From positions 992,001-1,056,000 of the forward strand of contig NZ_LIQG01000026.1 of assembly GCF_001418015.1 (NCBI RefSeq): a DNA stretch of 64,000 nt. Reading direction: 5' to 3'. A program made the position numbers and the translations under genes. The stretch is from Lacinutrix mariniflava. GTDB taxonomy: Bacteria; Bacteroidota; Bacteroidia; Flavobacteriales; Flavobacteriaceae. The notes under the pieces are model-generated. The model worked only from the letters and a program-made list of their open reading frames with translations. It searched no databases and was not told where the DNA came from. Of this stretch, positions 15,467 through 35,067 are shown piece after piece; position 1 is the first letter of the stretch; each line of letters opens with the position of its first letter.

Positions 15467-15517
15467 ATGTGTGCCTGTTTAGTAGTAATCGATCAAATAA
15501 ATATATCTTCGTGCTAG
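15467..15517 (+). CDS. Candidate ilv leader peptide (MCACLVVIDQINISSC)
   Basis: This is a 16-residue frame, ATG to TAG, with GAGG just before the ATG. Six of its 16 codons specify Leu, Val or Ile, including four in a row (LVVI), echoing the LVVI runs in enterobacterial ilv leaders. The stop is 263 bases before the ilvD ATG, nearly the same spacing as between the arginine-rich leader and its cluster further along. If real, ribosome stalling at LVVI under branched-chain starvation would control ilv transcription or translation. Chance occurrence is possible for so short a frame. Confidence 0.4.
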   Translation: MCACLVVIDQINISSC

Positions 15518-15780
15518 ACGGTAAAAGTTAGATATTAGCGACCAAAAAGAGTGAGTTTTTATTCTTTTTCAAAAGAGATGTTTTCTTTCAATATAAAACT
15601 GGAAGAATATTAGTTAATTGTCAAAAAAATAGCAGGATTGAACATCATACATTTTTGTATCTAAACATCTAATTTTCAGTAATTTAGATAGTTGTGTGTG
15701 ATTTTGAGTTTAGCTTGATTTCAATTACCGTTAAAGTGATAGAAAAACAAACAAGTACTTTAGATTTAGCAAATAAAATT

Positions 15781-22736: not shown

Positions 22737-24314
22737 ATGAATATTCCTGAACAGTATCAAATCAAAAACATATTAAACCAACAAACGTATTTAGTTGGAG
22801 GAGAATTGAAATCTTGGGAAGGAGAAACTTCTAAAGTGTATTCTACAATTTCTTCAACAACAGATTATAAGCCTACACTTCTTGGTAGTATTCCAACTTT
22901 AGGAGAAAAAGAAGCTTTAGAAGCACTTGATGCTGCTTGCGTAGCATATAATAAAGGACAAGGTGTATGGCCAACTATGAAAGTGGTAGATCGTATTACT
23001 TGTATGGAAAAGTTTGTAGAGCAAATGAAGACCAAGCGAGAGGAAATAGTAAAACTCTTGATGTGGGAAATTGGTAAAAATTTGCCAGATTCTCAAAAAG
23101 AATTTGATAGAACAGTTGAGTATATTTATGATACTATCGAAGATTATAAACAAATGGATCGCGACAGTGCTAAATTTGAAAAGAATGCAGGCGTAAATGC
23201 ACATATTCGTCGTGGACCTTTAGGTGTTGTTCTCTGTTTAGGACCTTACAATTATCCTTTAAATGAAACTTTTGCACTGCTTATTCCTGCTTTAATTATG
23301 GGTAATACAGCCGTTTTTAAACCAGCAAAACATGGTGTTTTGTTAATCTCACCTTTGTTAGAAGCTTTTAGAAGTAGTTTTCCAAAAGGAGTTGTGAACA
23401 TTATCTACGGAAGAGGACGAACAGTTGCGGCTCCAATTATGCAATCTGGTAAAGTAGATGTTTTAGCTTTAATTGGTAATAGTAAGTCTGCAAATGCATT
23501 ACAAAGTCAGCATCCTAAAAGTAATAGATTGCGTTCTGTTTTAGGTTTAGAAGCTAAAAATCCAGCAATAGTATTAAAAGACGCAGATTTAGATTTAGCA
23601 ATAGACGAGTGTATTGCAGGTTCTACTTCTTTTAATGGACAACGTTGTACAGCGCTAAAAGTGCTATATGTTCATCAAGATATTATAGAAGAATTTAATA
23701 AGCGTTTTTCTGCAAAAGTAGATGCGCTTAAATTTGGGAATCCATGGGAAGATGGTGCTAAATTAACGCCATTGCCAGAGCCAGATAAACCAGCTTATAT
23801 TCAAGAATTAATTGACGATGCTACTGCAAAAGGAGCACGTGTTATTAATGCAAAAGGAGGAGAGACGACTGAGAACTATATTTTTCCGGCAGTATTATAT
23901 CCTGTTTCTAAAGATATGCGAGTATTTCAAGAAGAGCAATTTGGGCCCGTTATCCCAATTGTCCCTTTTAATGATATTGAAGAGCCTTTAGATGATATGG
24001 CTGCTTCAAATTACGGACAACAAGTAAGTTTATTTGGGCAAGATGTTAAAACTCTAGCGCCATTAATAGATACTTTGGTAAACTTAGTGTGTCGTGTAAA
24101 CTTAAATAGTTCTTGCCAACGTGGACCAGATGTATATCCTTTTACAGGTCGTAAAGATTCTGCTGTTGCAACATTAAGTGTGCATGATGCCTTACGTTCT
24201 TTTTCAATTAGAACTTTTGTAGCCTCTAAAGACAATGATTATAATAATGCCATTTTAAAGGAATTATTAGAGTCTAGAGCTTCTAATTTTGTGAGTACTG
24301 ATTATATTTTATAA
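22737..24314 (+). CDS. gapN: NADP-dependent glyceraldehyde-3-phosphate dehydrogenase (GapN-type aldehyde dehydrogenase)
   Basis: This is an aldehyde dehydrogenase superfamily member of 525 residues. It resembles non-phosphorylating GapN, which oxidises glyceraldehyde-3-phosphate straight to 3-phosphoglycerate with NADP+. Visible landmarks are [11 protein letters not shown] (cofactor domain), catalytic Glu272 in LGLEAKNPA, catalytic Cys304 in [10 protein letters not shown], and [10 protein letters not shown] near the end. It starts 12 bases after ilvA, so it looks co-transcribed with the branched-chain genes. One reading is that it supplies NADPH for IlvC and glutamate synthase. The exact aldehyde substrate is inferred from family resemblance. 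Confidence 0.82.
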
Positions 24315-24371
24315 TTTAAACACCTTATAGATGAGATATTTACAATTATAAAGTTGATTATTTGCAAATTC

Positions 24372-24399
24372 ATAATTCTCGTTTAAAAATGAGAATTAT
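24372..24399 (+). terminator. Hairpin after gapN, possible end of the ilv operon
   Basis: A perfect 9-bp inverted repeat ATAATTCTC / GAGAATTAT with a 10-base loop lies about 60 bases after gapN. There is no T-tract, so it may be a 3'-end stabiliser rather than an intrinsic terminator. Confidence 0.35.
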
Positions 24400-24469
24400 A
24401 TGTTATTAGTTTAATTTTAATATGTAGTTTAGTACTATGTTAATTCAGAAAAATAAAATAGAAAGACCC

Positions 24470-24502
24470 ATGAGTTTGCCAACGCGCAGACGACGTCGCT
24501 AA
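24470..24502 (+). CDS. Arginine-rich leader peptide (MSLPTRRRRR)
   Basis: This is a 10-codon frame ending in five consecutive arginine codons (CGC AGA CGA CGT CGC) immediately followed by TAA. It lies 235 bases upstream of the first gene of the arginine cluster, in otherwise AT-rich sequence where CG-containing codons are rare. The form matches classical amino-acid attenuation leaders (runs of the regulated amino acid in a short frame ahead of its operon), with arginine as the sensed residue. A ribosome starved of charged Arg-tRNA would stall on codons 6-10 and alter folding of the RNA between 24503 and 24737. Function is inferred, the coding run is directly visible. Confidence 0.75.
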   Translation: MSLPTRRRRR

Positions 24503-24589
24503 TGCTAACACTTTAAGTTAATTAGTTAATCTATTTTTATTTTTTTTACATTGAACAATCCAAAACAAATATCTCCCTTTTTAAACACA

Positions 24590-24655
24590 GTTATTGAAAT
24601 CAATAACCGACCAAGTGTACGCCGATTTTTTACACGTCGCCCTTAGGGTGTACTT
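24590..24655 (+). promoter_or_regulatory. Candidate attenuator structures between the Arg leader and the arginine cluster
   Basis: There are two foldable elements. The first is a perfect hairpin GTTATTG-AAAT-CAATAAC at 24590-24607. The second is a stem between AAGTGTAC (24613-24620) and GTGTACTT (24648-24655), 8 pairs including two G-U, enclosing a T-run and CACGTCGCCC. The CGTCG at 24635-24639 in that enclosed part is complementary to CGACG within the leader's arginine codons (24491-24495), so pairing could switch with ribosome position. No other gene or promoter is clear in the 423-base gap 24315-24737. Confidence 0.4.
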
Positions 24656-24737
24656 ATATCTATAGAACTAAGGTGAGTCCGGTTCTGCTTTCAAACAAAA
24701 CAAATTCATTACATTTTTAAATTAAAAACCAATTACA

Positions 24738-25364
24738 ATGGAAATTGTTATTGCTAATAAATCGCATAGTATTTACGCAGACATTATTTGCGAAACTATT
24801 GCTGATGCTGCTCAAGTTAGAGGAACTGGAATTGCTAAACGTAAGCCAGAATATGTCATTACCAAAATGGAGAATGGCAATGCTGTTATTGCTTTAGATG
24901 ACGATAAGTTTGCTGGATTTTGTTATATAGAACAATGGAGTCACGGAAAGTTTGTAGCTAATTCGGGTTTAATTGTACATCCAGATTTTAGAAATTTAGG
25001 TTTAGCAAAAAAAATCAAAAAAAGAATATTCGAGCATTCTAGAACCAAGTTTCCAAATGCTAAAGTGTTTAGTATTACTACAGGTTTAGCGGTTATGAAA
25101 ATGAATAGTGATTTAGGTTATAAACCGGTTACGTTTTCAGAATTAACTAAAGATCAAACTTTTTGGAATGGTTGTCAAACCTGTAAGAATTTCGATGTTT
25201 TAACGCGAACAGAACAAGCAATGTGTTTATGTACAGGAATGTTATATGATCCTTTAAAAAAGGTAGAAGCTAAGTCTGAAACGAAAGAGCATGATAAAAA
25301 AGTGTGGACAAGATTAAAAAACATCAAACAAACATTATTTCTTAAAAAAGAAAATAAAAAATGA
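24738..25364 (+). CDS. GNAT-family acyltransferase heading the arginine cluster (probable N-acylglutamate synthase)
   Basis: This is a 208-residue GNAT protein, with acyl-CoA-binding region around LIVHPDFRNLGLAKKIKK (the usual R/Q-x-x-G-x-G/A loop is modified) at residues about 79-96. As the first gene of the arginine cluster, and with no other argA or argJ in the window, it is the natural candidate for acylating glutamate, the first step. After the fold comes an unusual cysteine set CQTC-x13-CLC (about residues 150-170) that could bind zinc or a cluster, and then a lysine-rich tail. The stop codon overlaps the first ATG of the 59-bp tandem units. The acyl donor (acetyl- or succinyl-CoA) is not decided by the sequence. 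Confidence 0.7.
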   Translation: MEIVIANKSHSIYADIICETIADAAQVRGTGIAKRKPEYVITKMENGNAVIALDDDKFAGFCYIEQWSHGKFVANSGLIVHPDFRNLGLAKKIKKRIFEHSRTKFPNAKVFSITTGLAVMKMNSDLGYKPVTFSELTKDQTFWNGCQTCKNFDVLTRTEQAMCLCTGMLYDPLKKVEAKSETKEHDKKVWTRLKNIKQTLFLKKENKK

Positions 25365-25596: not shown

Positions 25597-26775
25597 ATGA
25601 ATAAAAAACTAGTTATAGCATATAGTGGAGGTTTAGATACTTCTTATTGCGCAGTAAGTTTATCAAAAGAATACGATGTACACGCAGTAAGTGTAAATAC
25701 AGGAGGTTTTACAACAGAAGAAATTAAACATATAGAAAGTAATGCCTATAAAATGGGTGTTTCTACTTATAAAAATATAGATGCTATCGCTACTTTTTAT
25801 AATAAAGTAGTAAAGTATTTAATATTTGGGAACGTATTAAAAAATAGTACGTATCCATTGTCTGTAAGTGCAGAGCGTATTATTCAAGCTATAGAAATTA
25901 TTGAATACGCCAAAAGTATTGATGCAGAATATATAGCACATGGCAGTACAGGTGCAGGAAATGATCAAGTGCGTTTTGATATGATTTTTCAAACGTTGGC
26001 TCCAGGGATTAAAATTATCACGCCAATTAGAGATGGAAAGTTAACAAGAGAACAAGAAATAGAATATTTAAAATCTGAAGGTGTAGATATGCCTTGGGAA
26101 AAATCTAAATACTCTGTAAACAAAGGACTTTGGGGAACTAGTGTTGGTGGTGTAGAAACTTTAAAATCTGAAAAACCTTTACCTAGCGAAGCCTATCCTT
26201 CTCAATTAGAAAAAGAAGGAGAAGAAAAAGTAACATTAACTTTTAAAAACGGAGAGTTTGTTGCTTTTAATGGAGAAGAAAACACACCAGAAGTAAATAT
26301 TGAAAACTTAAATAATATAGCTTCAGCATATGCCATTGGTAGAGATATACATGTTGGAGATACTATTGTAGGTACAAAAGGAAGAGTTGGTTTTGAAGCT
26401 GCTGCTGCTTTAATTACAGTAAAAGCACATCATTTATTAGAAAAGCATACGCTTACAAAATGGCAATTACAGCACAAAGAGTATTTGTCTAGTTTTTACG
26501 GTATGCATTTACACGAAGGTCAGTATTTAGATCCTGTAATGAGAGATACAGAAGCTTTCTTACAAAGTTCTCAAAAAATGGTTTCGGGTAATGTTGTGGT
26601 TACTTTAAAACCGTATCACTTTTCTCTAGATGGTATTGTGTCTGATCACGATTTAATGTCTAGCGTATTTAGTACTTATGGTGAAGAAAATAAAGCTTGG
26701 ACAGCAGATGATGCTAAAGGTTTTATTAAAATTATAGGAAATCAAAATAAAATATACAGACAAGTAAATAATTAA
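25597..26775 (+). CDS. argG: Argininosuccinate synthase
   Basis: ArgG joins citrulline and aspartate using ATP. It has 392 residues. The ATP-pyrophosphatase loop AYSGGLDTSYC is at residues 7-17, and STGAGNDQVRFD and SKYSVNKGLWG are further family blocks. The start at 25597 is fixed by a strong AAAGGAG five bases upstream, unusual for this genome, which is the last of four repeated copies in the tandem array. It is followed by palindromic repeats before argC. Confidence 0.95.
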   Translation: MNKKLVIAYSGGLDTSYCAVSLSKEYDVHAVSVNTGGFTTEEIKHIESNAYKMGVSTYKNIDAIATFYNKVVKYLIFGNVLKNSTYPLSVSAERIIQAIEIIEYAKSIDAEYIAHGSTGAGNDQVRFDMIFQTLAPGIKIITPIRDGKLTREQEIEYLKSEGVDMPWEKSKYSVNKGLWGTSVGGVETLKSEKPLPSEAYPSQLEKEGEEKVTLTFKNGEFVAFNGEENTPEVNIENLNNIASAYAIGRDIHVGDTIVGTKGRVGFEAAAALITVKAHHLLEKHTLTKWQLQHKEYLSSFYGMHLHEGQYLDPVMRDTEAFLQSSQKMVSGNVVVTLKPYHFSLDGIVSDHDLMSSVFSTYGEENKAWTADDAKGFIKIIGNQNKIYRQVNN

Positions 26776-26805
26776 AATAGACCTAGCAGGCCTAAAAAAT
26801 CACTT

Positions 26806-26837
26806 TATCCTGCAAGGTTTCAAAAACCTTATAGGTT
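26806..26837. repeat. Palindromic intergenic repeat, CCTGCAAGGTTT family (copy C)
   Basis: TATCCTGCAAGGTTTCAAAA followed by ACCTTATAGG lies between argG and argC. It shares its first 20 bases exactly with copy A at 3291. Shorter than the other copies. Confidence 0.6.
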
Positions 26838-26868
26838 TAAAACTTAAAGTTAGGTTTAATTAATAAGA

Positions 26869-26886
26869 TTCCCACTTGCGTGGGAA
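26869..26886. repeat. Short perfect palindrome before argC
   Basis: TTCCCACTTGCGTGGGAA forms a 7-bp stem (TTCCCAC/GTGGGAA) with loop TTGC, ending 7 bases before the argC ATG. It could shape translation of argC. A decayed relative may lie before ilvA at 21431-21445. Confidence 0.5.
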
Positions 26887-26892
26887 ATAGAT

Positions 26893-27876
26893 ATGAAAAA
26901 TTTAGAAATAGGAATCATTGGAGGAGCAGGTTATACTGCAGGAGAGCTAATTAGGTTATTGCTTAATCATAATAAAGTGAATCTTAATTTTGTGTACAGT
27001 ACTTCTAATGCTGGAAATAAAGTGTATAAAGTACATCAAGATTTAGTAGGTTCTACAGAGTTGTTATTCTCAAGTGAGATAAATAAAGAAGTAGATGTGT
27101 TATTTTTATGCTTAGGTCATGGAAATTCTAAAGCTTTTTTAGAAAAGAATACGTTTTCTAAGGATACTAAAATTATTGATTTAAGTAATGATTTTAGATT
27201 ACTTGCAGATAAAAATTTCGAAGGAAAAGAATTTGTTTATGGATTACCTGAATTAGATAAAGAAGCTATTAAAACAGCTAAATACATTGCAAATCCTGGT
27301 TGTTTTGCAACAGCATTACAATTAGCAATCTTGCCTTTAGCAGCAAATGGTTTATTAACTAATGATGTGCATATAAATGCAGTTACTGGTGCAACTGGAG
27401 CAGGAACATCATTGTCTGCAACAACACATTTTACTTGGAGAGATAATAACTTCTCGCATTACAAAGCATTTAATCATCAACATTTAGGAGAGATTAACCA
27501 AACTGTAAACCAGTTACAGACTAACTTTAATTCCGAAATTAATTTTATGCCAAATAGAGGTGATTTTTCTAGAGGAATTTTTGCTACTGCGTATACAAAA
27601 TTTGAAGGCTCACTTGAGGAAGCAAATGCCCTTTATAAAGGATATTATAAAGATGCTGTATTTACTAGTGTTTCTGATGAAAGCATATTTTTAAAACAAG
27701 TAGTAAATACTAACAAATGTATTATTAGTCTTGAAAAACATGGAGACAAATTACTAATTACAAGTACAATAGATAATCTATTAAAAGGTGCTTCTGGAGC
27801 AGCAGTTCAAAACATGAATTTAATGTATGGTTTTGAAGAGTCTGAAGGCTTAAAATTAAAAGCTAGTTATTTTTAG
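26893..27876 (+). CDS. argC: N-acyl-gamma-glutamyl-phosphate reductase
   Basis: ArgC reduces N-acetyl- (or N-succinyl-) glutamyl phosphate to the semialdehyde with NADPH. It has 327 residues. The Rossmann loop GIIGGAGYTAGELIRLL is at the N-terminus, and the catalytic cysteine is Cys137 in IANPGCFATALQL. The following NHQHLGEI segment contains the conserved histidine. It belongs to the arg operon. Whether the acyl group is acetyl or succinyl is not visible here. Confidence 0.93.
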   Translation: MKNLEIGIIGGAGYTAGELIRLLLNHNKVNLNFVYSTSNAGNKVYKVHQDLVGSTELLFSSEINKEVDVLFLCLGHGNSKAFLEKNTFSKDTKIIDLSNDFRLLADKNFEGKEFVYGLPELDKEAIKTAKYIANPGCFATALQLAILPLAANGLLTNDVHINAVTGATGAGTSLSATTHFTWRDNNFSHYKAFNHQHLGEINQTVNQLQTNFNSEINFMPNRGDFSRGIFATAYTKFEGSLEEANALYKGYYKDAVFTSVSDESIFLKQVVNTNKCIISLEKHGDKLLITSTIDNLLKGASGAAVQNMNLMYGFEESEGLKLKASYF

Positions 27877-27891
27877 AAGTTAAGCTGTGCT

Positions 27892-27996
27892 GCGTTAGTG
27901 ATTGCAGTGGCATCCTTTTTATTTGTCTCTTCGAGCGCAGTCGAGAAGTTGTCAAATAAAAAGATATAACGGAAATCGCGACCCTTGTGGTAACGC
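27892..27996. repeat. Dispersed intergenic element between argC and proC
   Basis: Outer arms GCGTTA (27892-27897) and TAACGC (27991-27996), and inner arms CTTTTTATTTG (27915-27925) and CAAATAAAAAG (27953-27963), enclose TCTCTTCGAGCGCAGTCGAG, a motif recurring at 29976. It looks like a flavobacterial palindromic element; it has no credible reading frame. Confidence 0.55.
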
Positions 27997-28044
27997 CAAA
28001 AAAAATAAATAATAAAAAAGATAACCGCTTTCGCGGTCACTACG

Positions 28045-28845
28045 ATGAAAATAGCAATAATAGGAACAGGAAACTTAGGGAAGTCTATTGCAAAAGGTTT
28101 AATAAATAACAATGCGATTACAACCTTATACTTAACCAAAAGAAATTTAGAAGAGATTCAAGATTTTGAGGGTTATAAGAACGTGTATTTAACAACAGAT
28201 AATATTGAAGCTGTAAAGCAATCAGACATTCTTATTTTTGCAGTTCAGCCAGAGCATTTTGAAACTATTTTAAATGATATAAAAGCGGAATTAACAGAAA
28301 AGCATGTGATAATTTCTACAGTAACTGGTTTTTTAATTCCTAAAATTGAAGCTATAGTTGGAATAGATAAATTTATTATTCGTGCGATGCCTAATACAGC
28401 AATTGCCGTTGGTAAATCGATGACGTGTTTATGTAGTAACGAACGAGGTAAAAAACGTGTTAAAATTGCTGAAGCTATTTTTAATCGCTTAGGACATTCT
28501 ATAAATATTCCAGAAAACCAAATGCAAGCTGCAACAGTGGTTTGTGCAAGTGGTGTTGCTTTTTGGATGCGTTTAATTAGAGCAACAACACAAGCTGCTA
28601 TTCAGTTAGGTTTTGATGCTAAAGAAGCACAAGAATTAGCAATGTATACTAGTGAAGGCGCTGCGAGCTTATTAATAGAAAACGGAAACCACCCAGAAGA
28701 AGAAATAGATCGTGTAACAACACCAAAAGGATGTACTATTGAAGGTTTAAACGAAATGGAACATAAAGGTTTGAGTTCGTCTTTAATTCAAGGTATGATT
28801 ACATCTTTCAATAAAATTAACAGTATTAAAGAAGACCAAATATGA
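28045..28845 (+). CDS. proC: Pyrroline-5-carboxylate reductase (first paralogue)
   Basis: ProC reduces pyrroline-5-carboxylate to proline. It has 266 residues. The NAD(P)-binding loop is IIGTGNLGKSIAKGL. The central RAMPNTAIAVGKSMTC is the family signature, and the C-terminal half (ATVVCASGVAFWMRLIRA, then GCTIEGLNEMEHKGLSSS) forms the active site and dimer. It overlaps argD by 4 bases (ATGA), so it is embedded in the arginine operon. A second, closely similar copy lies at 34270. Its presence here links arginine and proline synthesis through glutamate semialdehyde or ornithine. A related reductase activity on an arginine intermediate cannot be excluded. Confidence 0.9.
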   Translation: MKIAIIGTGNLGKSIAKGLINNNAITTLYLTKRNLEEIQDFEGYKNVYLTTDNIEAVKQSDILIFAVQPEHFETILNDIKAELTEKHVIISTVTGFLIPKIEAIVGIDKFIIRAMPNTAIAVGKSMTCLCSNERGKKRVKIAEAIFNRLGHSINIPENQMQAATVVCASGVAFWMRLIRATTQAAIQLGFDAKEAQELAMYTSEGAASLLIENGNHPEEEIDRVTTPKGCTIEGLNEMEHKGLSSSLIQGMITSFNKINSIKEDQI

Positions 28846-29972
28846 GTTTATTTAACGTATATCCATTATTCGATATCACACCTGTAAGAGCAGAAGATGT
28901 TTATGTTTATGATGAAAATAACACCAAGTTTTTAGATTTATATGGTGGTCATGCTGTAATTTCTATTGGTCATTCGCATCCTAAATATGTAAAAAATATT
29001 AGCGATCAAGTGGCTAAATTAGGGTTTTATAGTAATTCTATTCAGAATCCTTTACAAGTAGAATTAGCCACTAAACTTGGTGAATTATCAGGCTGTAAAG
29101 AGTATCAATTATTTTTATGTAACTCTGGAGCAGAAGCCAATGAAAACGCATTAAAACTAGCGTCTTTTCATAATGGAAAGAAAAAAGTTGTAGCTTTTAA
29201 AAATGGATTCCATGGTCGTACATCTGCAGCAGTAGCAGCTACAGATAATCCTAAAATAATTGCACCAATTAATGCGCAACAAGAAGTAGAAATCTTAGAA
29301 TTAGGTGACTTAGAATCTTTAGAAAAAGCATTAGCTAAAAACGATGTTTGTGCTGTAATTATTGAGTGTATTCAAGGCGTTGGAGGATTAGATGAAAGTA
29401 CAACAGCATTTTATAAAGGCATTGAAACGTTGTGTAAAAAATATAATACTTGTTTTATTGCAGATGAAGTACAATCTGGTTTTGGTAGAACTGGAGATTT
29501 TTTCGCTTTTCAAAAACATAATGTCACTCCAGATATTATTCCTATTGCAAAAGGCATGGGAAATGGATTTCCAATTGGAGGTATTTTAATTCATCCAGAG
29601 ATTAAAGCTTCTTTTGGTTTATTAGGTACAACCTTTGGAGGAAACCATTTAGCATGTGTAGCATCTTCAACTGTTTTAGAAGTTATAGAAGAGCAGGATT
29701 TAATGCAAAATGCAAAAGCCATTTCTGAATATTTTATTGCTAAAGCAAATGAAATTTCAGCAATAAAAAATATAAAAGGACGTGGTTTAATGTTAGGCTT
29801 GGAATTCGATTTCCCAATTGCAGACCTTCGTAAAGCGTTAATTTTTACACATAAAATATTTACAGGAAGTGCTAAGAATCCTAAGTTGTTAAGAATTCTT
29901 CCGCCTTTAACTATTAAAAAAGAACATGTCGATTTGTTTTTTGAAGCTTTAAAACAAGAGATAAAATTATAA
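28842..29972 (+). CDS. argD: Acetylornithine/succinylornithine aminotransferase
   Basis: ArgD is a class III PLP aminotransferase making N-acylornithine from the semialdehyde, with glutamate as amino donor. It has 376 residues. NSGAEANENALKLA (phosphate cup), FIADEVQSGFGRTG (PLP-ring aspartate) and IPIAKGMGNGFPIGG (Schiff-base lysine) are visible. It starts inside proC (ATGA overlap). Members of this family often act on both acetyl- and succinyl-ornithine. Confidence 0.93.
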   Translation: MSLFNVYPLFDITPVRAEDVYVYDENNTKFLDLYGGHAVISIGHSHPKYVKNISDQVAKLGFYSNSIQNPLQVELATKLGELSGCKEYQLFLCNSGAEANENALKLASFHNGKKKVVAFKNGFHGRTSAAVAATDNPKIIAPINAQQEVEILELGDLESLEKALAKNDVCAVIIECIQGVGGLDESTTAFYKGIETLCKKYNTCFIADEVQSGFGRTGDFFAFQKHNVTPDIIPIAKGMGNGFPIGGILIHPEIKASFGLLGTTFGGNHLACVASSTVLEVIEEQDLMQNAKAISEYFIAKANEISAIKNIKGRGLMLGLEFDFPIADLRKALIFTHKIFTGSAKNPKLLRILPPLTIKKEHVDLFFEALKQEIKL

Positions 29973-29975
29973 AAA

Positions 29976-30031
29976 CCTCTCGACTGCGCTCGAGGAGACA
30001 AATGTTTGTCTGGTCCAGCGTAGTCGAGACC
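29976..30031. repeat. Small palindromic repeats with CTCGACTGCGCTCGAG motif
   Basis: CCTCTCGACTGCGCTCGAGG, followed at 30014-30031 by a relative (CCAGCGTAGTCGAGACC), fills most of the gap between argD and argF. Similar motifs occur in the element at 27892. Confidence 0.5.
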
Positions 30032-30043
30032 TATTTATTTATC

Positions 30044-30979
30044 ATGAAAAAATACACCAACATAAAAGATATATCAAATCTTAAAGAAACTATAAAGGAC
30101 GCTATTTTGTTAAAAAATGATCCTTATGAGTTTTCAGAGTTAGGAAAGAACAAAACCTTAGTCATGCTGTTTTTTAATTCTAGTTTGCGTACACGATTAA
30201 GTACAGAAAAAGCAGCGAAAAACTTAGGCATGGATGTCATGATTTTAAATGTTAATGATGCTTGGAACTTAGAGTTTGAAGATGGAACAATTATGAATGT
30301 TGATACTTCTGAGCATATCAAAGAAGCTGCACAGGTAATATCGCAATATGCAGATGTTATTGCAGTAAGAGCGTTTCCTGGTTTAGTAGACAAAGAAAAA
30401 GATCAAGCAGAATTTATAATGAATAGCTTTGTAAAGTACGCAACTGCACCATTGGTTAATATGGAAAGCGCAACTGCGCATCCATTACAAGCATTAACAG
30501 ATGCTATTACTATTTCAGAATTATCTAATAAAGCGAAACCAAAAGTCGTGTTGTCTTGGGCGCCACATCCAAAAGCTTTGCCTCATGCAGTCGCTAATTC
30601 GTTTGTAGAAATGATGCAAAATATGGATGTAGATTTAACTGTTACACATCCTGAAGGTTATGAGTTAAGTACAGAAATCACGAAAAATACACCAATAAAT
30701 CACAACCAAGAAGCCGCTTTAAAAGATGCTGATTTTGTGTATGTTAAAAATTGGAGTAGTTATAATGATTACGGAAAAATTTTAAGTCAAGATAAAGACT
30801 GGATGATGACTAGCGAGAAGTTAGATAACGCAAAATTTATGCATTGTTTACCAGTAAGACGTAATGTTGTAGTTGAAGATGCTGTTTTAGATGGTGATAA
30901 TTCGGTAGTAATACAACAAGCAAACAACAGAACATTTGCAGCACAGATTGTGCTAAAGCAAATTTTAGAGAACCTATAA
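30044..30979 (+). CDS. argF': N-acetyl/N-succinyl-ornithine carbamoyltransferase
   Basis: This transcarbamylase of 311 residues transfers carbamoyl phosphate to an N-acylated ornithine. I start it at the ATG at 30044 (MKKYTNIKD). A longer frame begins at 30002 but runs through a palindromic repeat. The carbamoyl-phosphate site reads FFNSSLRTRLST rather than the STRT of classical OTCases, and HPLQALTD and FMHCLPVRR are conserved. Overall it resembles the N-succinylornithine transcarbamylase of Bacteroides fragilis more than ordinary ArgF. By my alignment from memory, the residue that discriminates succinyl from acetyl substrates is Ser89 here. The acyl group needs a proper alignment. Confidence 0.85.
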   Translation: MKKYTNIKDISNLKETIKDAILLKNDPYEFSELGKNKTLVMLFFNSSLRTRLSTEKAAKNLGMDVMILNVNDAWNLEFEDGTIMNVDTSEHIKEAAQVISQYADVIAVRAFPGLVDKEKDQAEFIMNSFVKYATAPLVNMESATAHPLQALTDAITISELSNKAKPKVVLSWAPHPKALPHAVANSFVEMMQNMDVDLTVTHPEGYELSTEITKNTPINHNQEAALKDADFVYVKNWSSYNDYGKILSQDKDWMMTSEKLDNAKFMHCLPVRRNVVVEDAVLDGDNSVVIQQANNRTFAAQIVLKQILENL

Positions 30980-30981
30980 TT

Positions 30982-31758
30982 ATGAAAACACTAAAAATCA
31001 TAAAAATAGGAGGAAACATTATAGATAATGTTAGTGCTTTACAACAATTCTTAAAAGCCTTTGCAACTATAGATTCTCCTAAAATATTAGTTCATGGAGG
31101 TGGAAAATTAGCGACAAAACTAGCACAGCAAATGCAAGTTGAAGTTAATATGGTAGATGGAAGACGTGTAACAGATCAAGAGACGTTAGATATTATTACT
31201 ATGGTATACGCTGGAAAAATTAATAAAAATATTGTTGCGCAATTACAAGCGAATAGGTGTAATGCTATTGGTTTTTCAGGAGCAGATGGAAATACAATAG
31301 TTTCAAATTTAAGACCTTCAAAACCTATCGATTATGGTTTTGCTGGAGATGTAAAACAAGTAAATACAGAAGTCTTAGAAATACTTTTAAATAATAATGT
31401 GGCACCTGTTTTTTGTGCTATAACTCACGACGAAAAAGGTCAGTTGTTAAATACAAATGCAGATACTATCGCTTCAGAATTAGCAATCGGTTTTGCTTCT
31501 ACTTATAAAACAGAATTATATTATTGTTTCGAAAAAAATGGTGTTTTAGAAAATGTCGATAATGACGATTCTGTAATCGAAAATATCAATACAGAAAGCT
31601 ATAAAACACTAAAAGAAGAGAAAATAATTTTTGAAGGTATGCTTCCAAAATTAGACAACTGTTTTCATGCCATAAATCATCACGTTAGTAGAGTTTGTAT
31701 TGGGAAATCAAGCATGCTTTTTAATACAAATAGTAAACACACAACCATTACAAAATGA
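30982..31758 (+). CDS. argB: N-acylglutamate kinase
   Basis: ArgB is an amino-acid kinase family member of 258 residues that phosphorylates N-acetyl- or N-succinyl-glutamate. The N-terminal KIGGNII (ATP-phosphate lysine and glycine loop), VHGGGKLATKLA, and the ADTIASELAIGF block near residue 165 fit the family. It starts 2 bases after argF' and overlaps the deacylase gene by 4 bases, so it is tightly coupled on both sides. It is short at the N-terminus, without the helix typical of arginine-inhibited hexameric forms, so feedback inhibition by arginine is less likely. That last point is inference. Confidence 0.92.
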   Translation: MKTLKIIKIGGNIIDNVSALQQFLKAFATIDSPKILVHGGGKLATKLAQQMQVEVNMVDGRRVTDQETLDIITMVYAGKINKNIVAQLQANRCNAIGFSGADGNTIVSNLRPSKPIDYGFAGDVKQVNTEVLEILLNNNVAPVFCAITHDEKGQLLNTNADTIASELAIGFASTYKTELYYCFEKNGVLENVDNDDSVIENINTESYKTLKEEKIIFEGMLPKLDNCFHAINHHVSRVCIGKSSMLFNTNSKHTTITK

Positions 31759-32816
31759 TAGAAAAATTAACAACAAGGGCAATTGCTTTATTAAAGCAGC
31801 TTATAGAAACGCAGTCTTTTTCTTCAGAAGAAGGTCCAACAGCAGCACATATCGAACAATGGTTTGTAGAACAAGATGTTCCTTTTAATCGTACACGACA
31901 TAATGTTTGGGCAACAAACAACCATTTTGACGAGAGCAAACAAACATTATTATTAAACTCGCATCACGATACTGTAAAACCTAATAATGGTTATACTAAA
32001 GATCCATTTAAAGCCATTGTTGAAGATGGAAAATTATATGGTTTAGGAAGTAATGATGCAGGAGGATGCTTAGTGAGTTTGTTAGCGACTTTTGCGTATT
32101 TCTATAACAAAAAAGGCTTAAATTATAATATTGTTATTGTCGCTTCAGCGGAAGAAGAAAGCAGTGGAGATAACGGTTTAAATAGTATGTTAAGTGTTAT
32201 TCCAAAAGTAGATGTTGCTATTGTTGGAGAACCAACATTAATGAATTTGGCAGTAGCCGAAAAAGGTTTGGTTGTTTTTGATGCAGTAGTAAAAGGAACA
32301 CCAAGTCATGCTGCACATCCTAATAACGATAATGCTATTTATAAGAGCATTCCAGTTTTAGAATGGTTTAAAAACTACACATTCGATAAAAAATCTGAAG
32401 CTTTAGGTGAAGTAAAATTAACTGTTACACAAATTAATGCAGGAAAGCAGCATAATGCAGTGCCTGCTGATGTTAAAATGGTTGTAGATGTTCGTGTAAA
32501 CGACAAATACTCAAATCAAGATATTGTAGATATTTTACAAAAGGAAGCACCTTGTGATAGTATTACTCCAAGAAGTATAAAATTAAATTCATCGTCAATT
32601 CCAATCGATCATCCATTGGTAATTGCAGGAGTAGAGATTGGAAGAAGTACTTATGGTTCTCCAACGCTTTCAGATCAAGCAGTACTAAGTTGTCCGTCTT
32701 TAAAATTAGGACCAGGAGATAGTACAAGATCACATTCTGCAGATGAGTTTATTTACCTTAATGAAATAGAAGAAGGGATTAAGATTTATATAGAATTACT
32801 GGAAAAAGTGCTTTAA
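31755..32816 (+). CDS. argE: M20-family N-acylornithine or N-acylcitrulline deacylase
   Basis: This zinc-dependent amidohydrolase of 353 residues removes the acyl group late in arginine synthesis. Metal ligands appear in LLNSHHDTVKP (His-x-Asp), GSNDAGGC, and AEEESSGDNG (catalytic Glu plus metal Glu), followed by VGEPT. If the pathway runs through N-acylcitrulline, as the ArgF' type implies, the natural substrate would be N-acetyl- or N-succinyl-citrulline rather than ornithine. Its start overlaps argB (ATGA). Confidence 0.88.
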   Translation: MIEKLTTRAIALLKQLIETQSFSSEEGPTAAHIEQWFVEQDVPFNRTRHNVWATNNHFDESKQTLLLNSHHDTVKPNNGYTKDPFKAIVEDGKLYGLGSNDAGGCLVSLLATFAYFYNKKGLNYNIVIVASAEEESSGDNGLNSMLSVIPKVDVAIVGEPTLMNLAVAEKGLVVFDAVVKGTPSHAAHPNNDNAIYKSIPVLEWFKNYTFDKKSEALGEVKLTVTQINAGKQHNAVPADVKMVVDVRVNDKYSNQDIVDILQKEAPCDSITPRSIKLNSSSIPIDHPLVIAGVEIGRSTYGSPTLSDQAVLSCPSLKLGPGDSTRSHSADEFIYLNEIEEGIKIYIELLEKVL

Positions 32817-32821
32817 AATTT

Positions 32822-32918
32822 ACGTCAGTTCGAGTGATTCGACGAAGGAGAATAGTATCGAGAACTTTTAAAAACTTCTCGATACAAAATTCTAAAAAAG
32901 AATTTCACTCGAAGTGAC
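32822..32918. repeat. Dispersed palindromic intergenic element (copy 2)
   Basis: This is the reverse-orientation partner of 7169-7274, lying between argE and argH. The stretch from CTTCTCGATACAAAATTC to the end (CACTCGAAGTGAC) matches the reverse complement of copy 1 almost base for base. It also contains inner arms TATCGAGAAC / CTTCTCGATA. Confidence 0.7.
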
Positions 32919-32943
32919 AAAGATCAAATTAAAAAAGAAAACT

Positions 32944-34218
32944 ATGAAACTCTGGGACAAAGGAATAAGTATCGATAAAAAAATAGAACAATTTACTGTT
33001 GGTAACGATAGAGAAATTGATTTACATATTGCAAAGTACGATGTGCAAGCATCTTTAGCGCATGCTATCATGTTAGAATCTATAGGTATAATTTCTTCGG
33101 AAGAATTATTGCAATTAAAAACAGGATTAAATGCAATTGCTAAAACCATAGAAAACGGAACGTTTGTTATTGAAGCTTCTTTTGAAGATGTACATTCTAA
33201 AATGGAATATGAACTAACAAAAACATTAGGTGATGTTGGAAAAAAAATTCACACAGCACGTTCAAGAAACGATCAAGTTTTAGTTGCGCTTCAATTATAT
33301 TACAAAGAGAACTTAAAAGAAATTAACGATAAAACGAAGACGTTTTTCGATACACTTTTAGGCTTAGCCGAAACACATAAAAACGCTTTACTTCCTGGTT
33401 ATACACATTTACAAGTGGCAATGCCATCTTCGTTTGGTTTATGGTTTTCTGCCTATGCTGAGGTTTTAATTGATGATGTTTACTTGTTAAATGCAGCTAT
33501 AAAAACAGTAGATCAAAATCCGTTAGGTTCTGCAGCTGGTTATGGAAGTTCTTTTCCTATCGATAGAGAATTAACAACCAAAGAACTGGGTTTTTCAACT
33601 TTAAAATATAATGTTGTTGCTGCGCAAATGAGCAGAGGAAAAAGCGAACGTACTATTGCTTTAGCTTTAGGAAGTGTTTGTAATACATTAGCGCGTTTTG
33701 CAATGGATATTTGTGTGTATAATAGTCAGAATTTTGGCTTTATAGCATTCCCAGACGAATTAACTACAGGAAGCAGTATTATGCCTCATAAAAAAAATCC
33801 AGATGTATTTGAGCTTATTAGAGGAAAAGCAAATAAAATACAAGCCTTACATACCGAAATGGTTTTAATAACTAATAATTTGCCAAGTGGTTACCACAGA
33901 GATTTTCAGTTATTAAAAGAAAACATAATTGCAGCAATAGAAGATGTGAAAGATTTATTAGACATCTTTAATTATGCAATACAACAAGTTATTGTAAAGC
34001 ACGTAGATTTAAACGATGCTAAATACCAATACTTATTTACTGTAGATAATATAAATACATTAGTAGTCGATGGTATGCCTTTTAGAGAAGCGTATCAAAA
34101 AATTGGAGGCGAAGTAGAAAATGGAACATATAAACCAGATACATCAAAACAACATACGCATGTTGGTAGTATTGGTAATTTGTGTTTAAAGAATATTAGT
34201 GATAAGTATCCTAAATAG
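32944..34218 (+). CDS. argH: Argininosuccinate lyase
   Basis: ArgH splits argininosuccinate to arginine and fumarate. It has 424 residues from the ATG at 32944 (MKLWDKGISIDKKIEQFTVG, the normal family N-terminus). A GTG at 32914 is in frame but lies partly in the upstream repeat. The fumarase/aspartase signature GSSIMPHKKNPDVFE, with the catalytic serine loop, is near residues 280-295, and TARSRNDQV is near 100. A second proC follows 51 bases later. Confidence 0.95.
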   Translation: MKLWDKGISIDKKIEQFTVGNDREIDLHIAKYDVQASLAHAIMLESIGIISSEELLQLKTGLNAIAKTIENGTFVIEASFEDVHSKMEYELTKTLGDVGKKIHTARSRNDQVLVALQLYYKENLKEINDKTKTFFDTLLGLAETHKNALLPGYTHLQVAMPSSFGLWFSAYAEVLIDDVYLLNAAIKTVDQNPLGSAAGYGSSFPIDRELTTKELGFSTLKYNVVAAQMSRGKSERTIALALGSVCNTLARFAMDICVYNSQNFGFIAFPDELTTGSSIMPHKKNPDVFELIRGKANKIQALHTEMVLITNNLPSGYHRDFQLLKENIIAAIEDVKDLLDIFNYAIQQVIVKHVDLNDAKYQYLFTVDNINTLVVDGMPFREAYQKIGGEVENGTYKPDTSKQHTHVGSIGNLCLKNISDKYPK

Positions 34219-34269: not shown

Positions 34270-35067
34270 ATGAAAATAGCAATTATAGGAGTTGGTAACC
34301 TTGGGTTATCTATCGCAAAAGGATTATTAGCAAGTGATATTACAACATCGTTATACTTAACAAAGCGTCATATTAACGAATTAGAAGGTTTAAAATCTGA
34401 TAAAAAAGTCATTATTACTAGTGATAATGGAGAGGCAATTTCAAATTCAGACATTATTATATTCGCTGTTCAACCTAATCATTTAGGTGCTGTATTGCGT
34501 AAAAATCAACAATTTATTACGCAAAAACATACTTTGATATCTACTATTACGGGTTTTTCAATTGAAAAAATTGAAGCTATTATTGGTAATGAATACTCTG
34601 TAATTAGAGCTATGCCAAATACTGCAATTGCAGTTGGTAAATCTATGACTTGTATTTGTAGCAACGAAAAAGCACAATTAAAATTAAATACTGCTAGAAA
34701 AATATTTGATCTTTTAGGAACTACTTTAGTAATACCTGAAAAACAAATGCAAGCAGCGACAGTGGTTTGTGCAAGTGGAGTAGCCTTTTGGATGCGTTTA
34801 ATTAGAGCAACAACACAAGCGGCAATACAACTTGGTTTTGATGCTAAAGAAGCGCAGTTGTTAGCAATGCATACTGCAGAAGGTGCAGCAGGTTTGTTGA
34901 TTGCTACAGGTAATCATCCAGAAGAAGAAATAGATAAAGTAACAACGCCAAGAGGTTGTACTATTGAAGGTTTAAATGAAATGGAACACCAAGGTTTAAG
35001 CTCATCTTTAATTCAAGGTATGATTGCTTCTTTTGGTAAGATTGATGGGATTAAGGATAGAACTTAA
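34270..35067 (+). CDS. proC: Pyrroline-5-carboxylate reductase (second paralogue)
   Basis: This is a 265-residue ProC closely related to the one at 28045. The two share long near-identical stretches in the C-terminal half (ATVVCASGVAFWMRLIRA, and TIEGLNEMEH-GLSSSLIQG), while the N-terminal Rossmann halves have diverged more. The NAD(P) loop is IIGVGNLGLSIAKGL. It ends the arginine cluster and is followed by a good terminator. Having two copies at either side of argD-argH suggests local duplication with possible specialisation, for example different cofactors or growth conditions. Confidence 0.9.
   Translation: MKIAIIGVGNLGLSIAKGLLASDITTSLYLTKRHINELEGLKSDKKVIITSDNGEAISNSDIIIFAVQPNHLGAVLRKNQQFITQKHTLISTITGFSIEKIEAIIGNEYSVIRAMPNTAIAVGKSMTCICSNEKAQLKLNTARKIFDLLGTTLVIPEKQMQAATVVCASGVAFWMRLIRATTQAAIQLGFDAKEAQLLAMHTAEGAAGLLIATGNHPEEEIDKVTTPRGCTIEGLNEMEHQGLSSSLIQGMIASFGKIDGIKDRT

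Follow-up and report, generated by a model that had tools for sequence, protein, structure and literature searches.

The window analysed here, a stretch of 64,000 nucleotides from the genome of Lacinutrix mariniflava (3.97 Mb in 32 contigs), contains a plus-strand cluster of arginine and proline synthesis genes. Pfam and NCBIfam assignments place first a GNAT acetyltransferase gene (24738-25364, PF00583), followed by argG, argC, proC, argD, a gene for an argF-like carbamoyltransferase, argB, a gene for an argE-like M20 hydrolase and argH (25597-34218), and finally a second proC-like gene (34270-35067, PF14748 and PF03807). An earlier reading made from the letters only (the sequence-only reading) had described a leader ahead of such a cluster, and these assignments agree with it. 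Among the named loci, the GNAT protein is closest to those of Meridianimaribacter (92%, partial), Oceanihabitans and Olleya (88%), and ArgG to those of Polaribacter and Algibacter (93-94%). Two proC-like pyrroline-5-carboxylate reductase genes are present, one inside the cluster (28045-28845) and one at its end (34270-35067), and a Flavo-1 RNA (RF01705, 50.8 bits) lies between argC and proC at 27879-27987 on the plus strand. Elsewhere in the window, the plus strand holds at 15467-15517 a short frame, MCACLVVIDQINISSC and a stop, which contains a Leu-Val-Val-Ile run and precedes two possible ilvD starts by about 180-265 nt. By eye, a T-rich hairpin-like stretch follows this frame near 15543-15569, and the frame is possibly a branched-chain leader peptide.

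The sequence-only reading had proposed a leader peptide, MSLPTRRRRR, beginning at 24470. Positions 24470-24502 indeed read ATG AGT TTG CCA ACG CGC AGA CGA CGT CGC TAA. A run of five Arg codons and a stop, or even of four, is unique among the six frames of the 64 kb window, and none of 60 resamples drawn from a first-order Markov model of the window contains the run of five with its stop, which upholds the judgement that it is unlikely to be due to chance. The start, in contrast, probably lies further upstream, at ATG 24437 and not at ATG 24470, because the near plus-strand relatives lack the inner ATG and begin their first Arg frame at the position equivalent to ATG 24437 (e.g. MFTIINKNERPTSLLLRRRRR), and because the outer start has a TAnnTTTG-like box beginning 12 nt upstream of it. 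TAnnTTTG is the flavobacterial -7 promoter consensus; the box (TAGTTTAG, 24425-24432, plus strand) agrees with it at 5/6 positions. The resulting frame, ORF1 (MLIQKNKIERPMSLPTRRRRR, 24437-24502, plus strand), has 21 codons with the five Arg codons at its end.

A second leader frame, ORF2 (MNNPKQISPFLNTVIEINNRPSVRRFFTRRP, 24551-24646, plus strand), has a TTG start and ends ...RRFFTRRP, with its TAG stop inside hairpin A (24636-24653, plus strand). The arms of hairpin A are 24636-24642 and 24646-24653; its 5' arm is formed by the last Arg codons and the Pro codon of ORF2, and the stop lies at the loop. Hairpin B (AGAACT-AA-GG-UGAGU-CC-GGUUCU, 24664-24686, plus strand) follows, a bulged structure with a near-invariant AGGUGNGUCC and a covarying stem. 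Together A and B make up the conserved element (24632-24690, plus strand; models R1 and R2), a block that is better conserved in near relatives than ORF1 or ORF2. Within ORF2 lies a further hairpin, P0 (GTTATTG-AAAT-CAATAAC, GTTATTGAAATCAATAAC; 24590-24607, plus strand), which the sequence-only reading had also pointed out.

We compared 110 loci carrying the element (L032-L141, including that of the window), of which 107 were oriented and L052, L088 and L106 were left out. In 105 of the 107 oriented loci the element is followed directly by the GNAT gene, and the distance from GGTG to the projected GNAT start is 57-159 nt (median 65). In the two exceptions, L084 and L100 (genomes G380 and G119), a different gene that looks GNAT-like by eye is found downstream, with argG next in L100; the element therefore seems to stay with the cluster when the first gene is replaced. 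Alignment A4 covers 100 of the 110 loci, and alignments A1-A3 the plus-strand loci only. A loose filter finds an ORF1-like Arg-rich frame some 200 nt upstream of the core in 53 of 100 loci, at least three of which (e.g. L059, L078 and L103) look like chance; another filter finds one in 51 of 100. A TAnnTTTG-like box (at least 5/6) precedes 48 of the 53 ORF1-like starts, beginning 9-20 nt upstream, compared to 19% of control places. Another 38 loci have no ORF1 and an ATG-started ORF2, with such a box before it in 30; nine of the 100 loci fit neither layout. Because the promoter-like boxes stand beside the first leader frames, transcription probably begins next to whichever frame comes first, ORF1 or ORF2.

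Frame statistics argue that ORF2 is read as protein. In A4, the frame that passes through CGN CGN CCN of hairpin A extends upstream without interruption over a median of 38 codons, where the other frames reach 15 and 11. Its stop falls within hairpin A in 90 of 100 loci, the other ten reading past that place. Arg triplets account for 235 of 900 positions in the last nine codons before the core; the other two frames of the same strand have 38 and 26 of 800. Counted back from the core Arg codon, they occupy codons -5, -4 and -1 in 47, 42 and 47 of 100 loci and do not exceed 6% from codon -14 upward. The reverse strand of this stretch shows 112, 212 and 34 Arg-like triplets in its three frames; the 212 are meaningless, since CG is self-complementary and CGN codons produce them. 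CGN serves as the core Arg codon in 98 of 100 loci, with a variable third base, and Arg codons upstream of the core are CGN in 215 of 277 cases (78%) versus 58 of 122 (48%) in 13 genes of the window, a comparison that sets 100 loci from various genomes against the codon use of these 13 genes only. ORF2 is kept more widely than ORF1, and the sequence-only reading had found the first, less widespread part of the leader.

The encoded peptides bear on two further explanations. It is hardly credible that ORF1 and ORF2 specify functional small proteins to which the hairpins are incidental: both are open frames with a start and a stop, but apart from Arg their peptides vary by eye, the hairpins covary and the whole holds a fixed place before one cluster. 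The variability of all residues except Arg instead favours the Arg codons as the sensor. Most ORF2 peptides terminate RRP or RRRP before the stop, as might be expected if this end were a nascent arrest peptide sensing free arginine, comparable to TnaC and the fungal arginine attenuator peptide. We consider such an arrest improbable, since the N-terminal part of ORF2 varies, ten of 100 loci read past the RRP-stop place, and Thr replaces Pro in those loci whose hairpin A has CAC for CCC, so that the residue follows the RNA pairing.

The structure of the element is strongly conserved. In A4, 96.1% of the cells pair in A+B and 84 cells have changed on both sides, compared to a mean of 21.4 in shuffles (none of 500 as high) and at most 20 in slid controls, in an alignment that was fitted to R1 and hence leans towards its structure. 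CCC/GGG of hairpin A is changed to CAC/GTG in eight rows. Hairpin B shows several stem pair types, with the inner GG/CC changed to GA/UC in L088 and L106, and keeps its bulge (mostly 1-3 bases ending in A), the two pairs and a UGNGU loop; its topology resembles that of phage coat-protein operators, which we take as a lead only. AGGUGA within B was set aside as a Shine-Dalgarno site, given that it is some 65 nt upstream of the start and is altered together with its stem in L088 and L106. With a model of hairpin B alone (R3), one strong copy (E 1.7e-6 or better) was found in each of 12 of 39 genomes, always at the element, and we therefore dismissed the idea that B is a general module. The best R3 match away from the element in the 39 genomes reached E 0.015 (G012:C3); three further element copies scored only E 0.06-0.46, probably because R3 was built from the 23-nt form. 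Hairpin B is present in all ten same-genus genomes having the GNAT gene. P0, which is present in the window as the sequence-only reading had it, pairs above shuffles in the 53 ORF1-bearing loci at the same offset (75.2% of cells versus a mean of 54.4% and a maximum of 59.8% in 200 shuffles, the offset having been picked after an earlier look at the loci), and its pairing stays within shuffles in the 47 loci without ORF1.

In silico, hairpin A folds with a median probability of 0.94-0.99 and exceeds 0.5 in 83-97 of 100 loci; in the window's own locus it falls to 0.40 in one folding context, and it is lost, by construction, when a ribosome covers its 5' arm. Hairpin B has a median probability of 0.52 in the long leader, where its competing partners are scattered, and of 0.76-0.87 when ribosome masking extends up to the Arg codons or beyond. 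Over its full 311 nt the leader does not exceed shuffles in stability (z -0.82; 19 of 100 shuffles did as well). A metabolite-binding riboswitch that happens to overlap a reading frame would agree with the strong conservation of A+B, including the near-invariant bulge and loop of B. However, the in-frame clustering of Arg codons upstream of A+B points to a translated frame, hairpin B spans only 23 nt and the element has no Rfam match, which makes a riboswitch a very remote prospect.

Of 397 Flavobacteriaceae genomes, 232 gave exactly one match each to model R1, which was built from 10 loci and used at E<=0.001. These carriers include 204 of the 330 good genomes and represent 150 of 237 genera, and six of the 232 had supplied seed sequences. 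The GNAT gene is present in 266 of the same 397 genomes; comparing the lists by eye, 229 genomes have both, three the element only (G119, G186 and G380) and 37 the GNAT gene only. In a class-wide sample of 395 genomes, searched with stricter filters, all nine R2 matches belong to this family, the window's genome included, and R3 did not get below E 1.66 in 15 genomes from the order's other families. Among named genomes, R2 confirmed 78 of the 80 pattern matches listed (the best 80 of 119), in carriers that include Maribacter, Zobellia, Winogradskyella, Polaribacter, Gelidibacter, Olleya, Cellulophaga baltica and Tenacibaculum ovolyticum. A GNAT match accompanies 75 of these 78 loci; of the other three, two are cut off by the locus end and L166 carries argG but not this GNAT. 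Pattern matches from outside the family, in Pseudomonas (L161) and Saprospiraceae (L223), were discarded, with no R2 score and no GNAT, argG or argC match. Rfam at gathering scores found only Flavo-1 in the window, away from the leader, and no family on the leader itself, Bacteroid-trp (RF01692) included; on 24315-24760 with E up to 5 it returned one match, far below its gathering score. Arg-rich frames are thus kept upstream of the GNAT-arg cluster in relatives, as the comparison suggested by the sequence-only reading would have it, and the sequence evidence indicates that the A+B leader is a real, widespread and family-specific arginine leader RNA.

Thirty of the 37 GNAT-only genomes were searched and 29 new, R1-negative loci were read. 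A script detected an Arg-rich leader frame in 19 of the 29; among the ten others, one (L284) shows such a frame by eye. A B-like loop string occurs in nine of the 29. By eye, A/B is decayed or altered in L271, L272, L276-L278 and L289, and L281 and L283 have an Arg-rich leader with another hairpin (...RRRRCRE before the stop). As A and B are decayed or replaced in these variants while Arg frames are kept, comparison of the loci points to the Arg codons as what stays constant in the leader. L287 and L288, both of genus g146, have the GNAT gene and no Arg-rich frame detectable by script in the preceding 380 nt; this genus may control the cluster in another way. In another family (f15), locus L026 shows by eye, about 98-206 nt before its GNAT match, a frame reading MKQVNIYTPSERPVLTIGIGRFSPLDRFRREPNRQ and a stop beside a promoter-like box, maybe an independent Arg-containing leader outside the Flavobacteriaceae.

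An attenuator of the trp/his type is defined by a leader ORF with codons of the amino acid, a matching operon, a terminator with a U-tract, an exclusive antiterminator and supply-dependent read-through. The first two of these features are found here, as a leader ORF with clustered Arg codons is located directly before the matching operon. We found no intrinsic-terminator-like site in 24300-24800, where the scan expects 0.1 by chance, and over 100 loci hairpin B is followed by about five pyrimidines and then by A-rich sequence. Pairing of the upstream Arg codons with the 3' arm of hairpin A scored a mean of 12.9 versus 12.2 in shuffles over 100 loci (better in 61), near the controls, and was rejected as a family-wide switch; above the shuffles are the window's own locus (17 versus 11.7) and some near relatives, with scores of 15-18 in L033, L036, L045 and L046. 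Pairing of the hairpin B loop with upstream, Arg-codon or downstream RNA was likewise rejected (mean z 0.04, -0.18 and -0.35).

The sequence-only reading had built its switch on two other pairings. The first, between CGTCG in the 5' arm of hairpin A and CGACG within the Arg stretch of ORF1, was dropped because it does not co-vary between genomes: in 84 of 200 swaps between genomes the pairing was as good. As to the second, a stem of 24613-24620 with 24648-24655, both 8-mers are in the sequence and pair in one fold of the window's 77-nt stretch, but relatives keep hairpin A. A switching fold can thus form in silico in the window's own locus, and none of the alternative pairings examined is conserved over the 100 loci. 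What endures of the proposed attenuation leader is a leader with Arg codons that precedes an arginine cluster and recurs in relatives; a terminator and a switch find no support across the family. Classical attenuation by an intrinsic terminator and an antiterminator, for which speak the runs of Arg codons ahead of an arginine operon and, in the window and some near relatives, the pairing above shuffles and the drop of hairpin A to 0.40 in one context, is accordingly unlikely given the missing terminator-like site, the A-rich sequence after B and the near-control pairings.

The lack of an intrinsic-terminator-like site in the leader would suit a Rho-dependent mechanism, in which translation or stalling in the leader shields RNA from Rho or exposes it, with A and B setting the window for Rho. 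There is a precedent in the speF leader, which combines Arg codons and Rho (PMC6386406). On the other hand, only about 60 nt separate hairpin B from the GNAT start, and we regard Rho dependence as possible but rather doubtful; it would be a version of control by a stalling ribosome and not its opposite.

Based on the frames, the Arg clustering, the hairpins, their covariation, the position and the taxonomic spread, we consider it fairly probable that the region is a cis-acting arginine-sensing leader of the arginine cluster, in which ribosome stalling at the Arg codons of ORF1 and ORF2 sets hairpin A. Transcription would start just before ORF1 in the window and in about half of the loci, and just before ORF2 in most others, and ribosomes would translate both frames. 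When charged Arg-tRNA is short, a ribosome would stall at the terminal Arg codons, mostly CGN. Because the last ORF2 codons form the 5' arm of hairpin A and the stop lies at its loop, ribosome position would decide the state of A: a ribosome stalled in these codons would hold A open, and completion and release would let it close. Stalling in the last codons of ORF2 thus plausibly sets hairpin A, whose state, together with the bulged hairpin B, is predicted to set GNAT-arg expression, most likely upwards when Arg is scarce; Rho-dependent termination, RNA decay and translation are candidate routes for this effect.

Since hairpin B lies beyond a ribosome at the ORF2 stop, it is not accounted for by ribosome position alone. 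It lacks a terminator tail, none of the partners examined is conserved, and its reader may therefore be an undescribed factor. We put forward, tentatively and as a possibility well short of our main reading in confidence, that the element is a new Flavobacteriaceae-specific RNA class replacing ArgR, in which Arg frames, often two in tandem, set hairpin A, and hairpin B with its AGGUGNGUCC docks a trans-acting factor (a protein, RNA polymerase or the ribosome) that couples ribosome position to expression without a terminator.

Among known systems, the leader of speF in Salmonella, with its orf34 (DUF2618), has been shown to sense arginine through Arg codons (PMC6386406). It shares with the A+B leader a short ORF with consecutive Arg codons, a reading of arginine by ribosome pausing, which is predicted in our case, a hairpin at or after the ORF stop and a long leader RNA. 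In speF, however, the hairpin lies just downstream of the ORF stop and the controlled gene encodes ornithine decarboxylase in gammaproteobacteria (PMC6386406), whereas the stop of the A+B leader lies inside a hairpin and its putative target is arginine synthesis. The A+B leader further differs in that its Arg codons stand at the ORF end, that an additional, bulged hairpin follows and that there is often another Arg ORF. Comparison of the two indicates a likeness in working and not in descent. Bacteroid-trp RNA (RF01692) is presumably a leader with codons for tryptophan, the amino acid whose synthesis genes follow, that ends in a terminator hairpin. Like the A+B leader it is a Bacteroidota leader RNA, but for tryptophan, and the A+B leader has no Rfam match; it is listed together with the GUCCY-hairpin in PMC2864571. 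The latter is a hairpin motif of Bacteroidetes and Proteobacteria whose name recalls GUCC in hairpin B, but the base after GUCC in B is a purine in the aligned rows, a comparison that goes by the name only. Section 19 of PMC9723704 reports strong indications that amino-acid operons of Flavobacterium psychrophilum, a member of the same family, are preceded by leader-peptide attenuators; it names pheA and hisG elements among the conserved ones and no arginine element. Neither Flavobacteri- nor Bacteroidetes occurs in the main text of PMC8632094. A literature search with subscription papers mostly outside its scope found no description of a Flavobacteriaceae or Bacteroidetes arginine leader.

In textbook accounts, arginine genes are controlled by the ArgR/AhrC repressor, and the sequence-only reading had called an arginine attenuator notable for that reason. 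The ArgR C-terminal domain (PF02863) was found in none of 60 genomes, 37 of the family and 23 of the order, the window's own included, and a control search was positive in 8 of 14 named genomes, among them a Bacteroides. With the domain absent in all 60, an RNA sensor is a natural candidate, and the leader RNA may stand in for the arginine repressor that Flavobacteriaceae appear to lack. A leader present in one copy in 229 of the 266 GNAT-bearing genomes would explain how arginine is sensed where 60 of 60 Flavobacteriales genomes are without the ArgR domain. It would also offer a clean test case for leader-peptide control in the Bacteroidota, a phylum that, to our knowledge, translates without Shine-Dalgarno sites.
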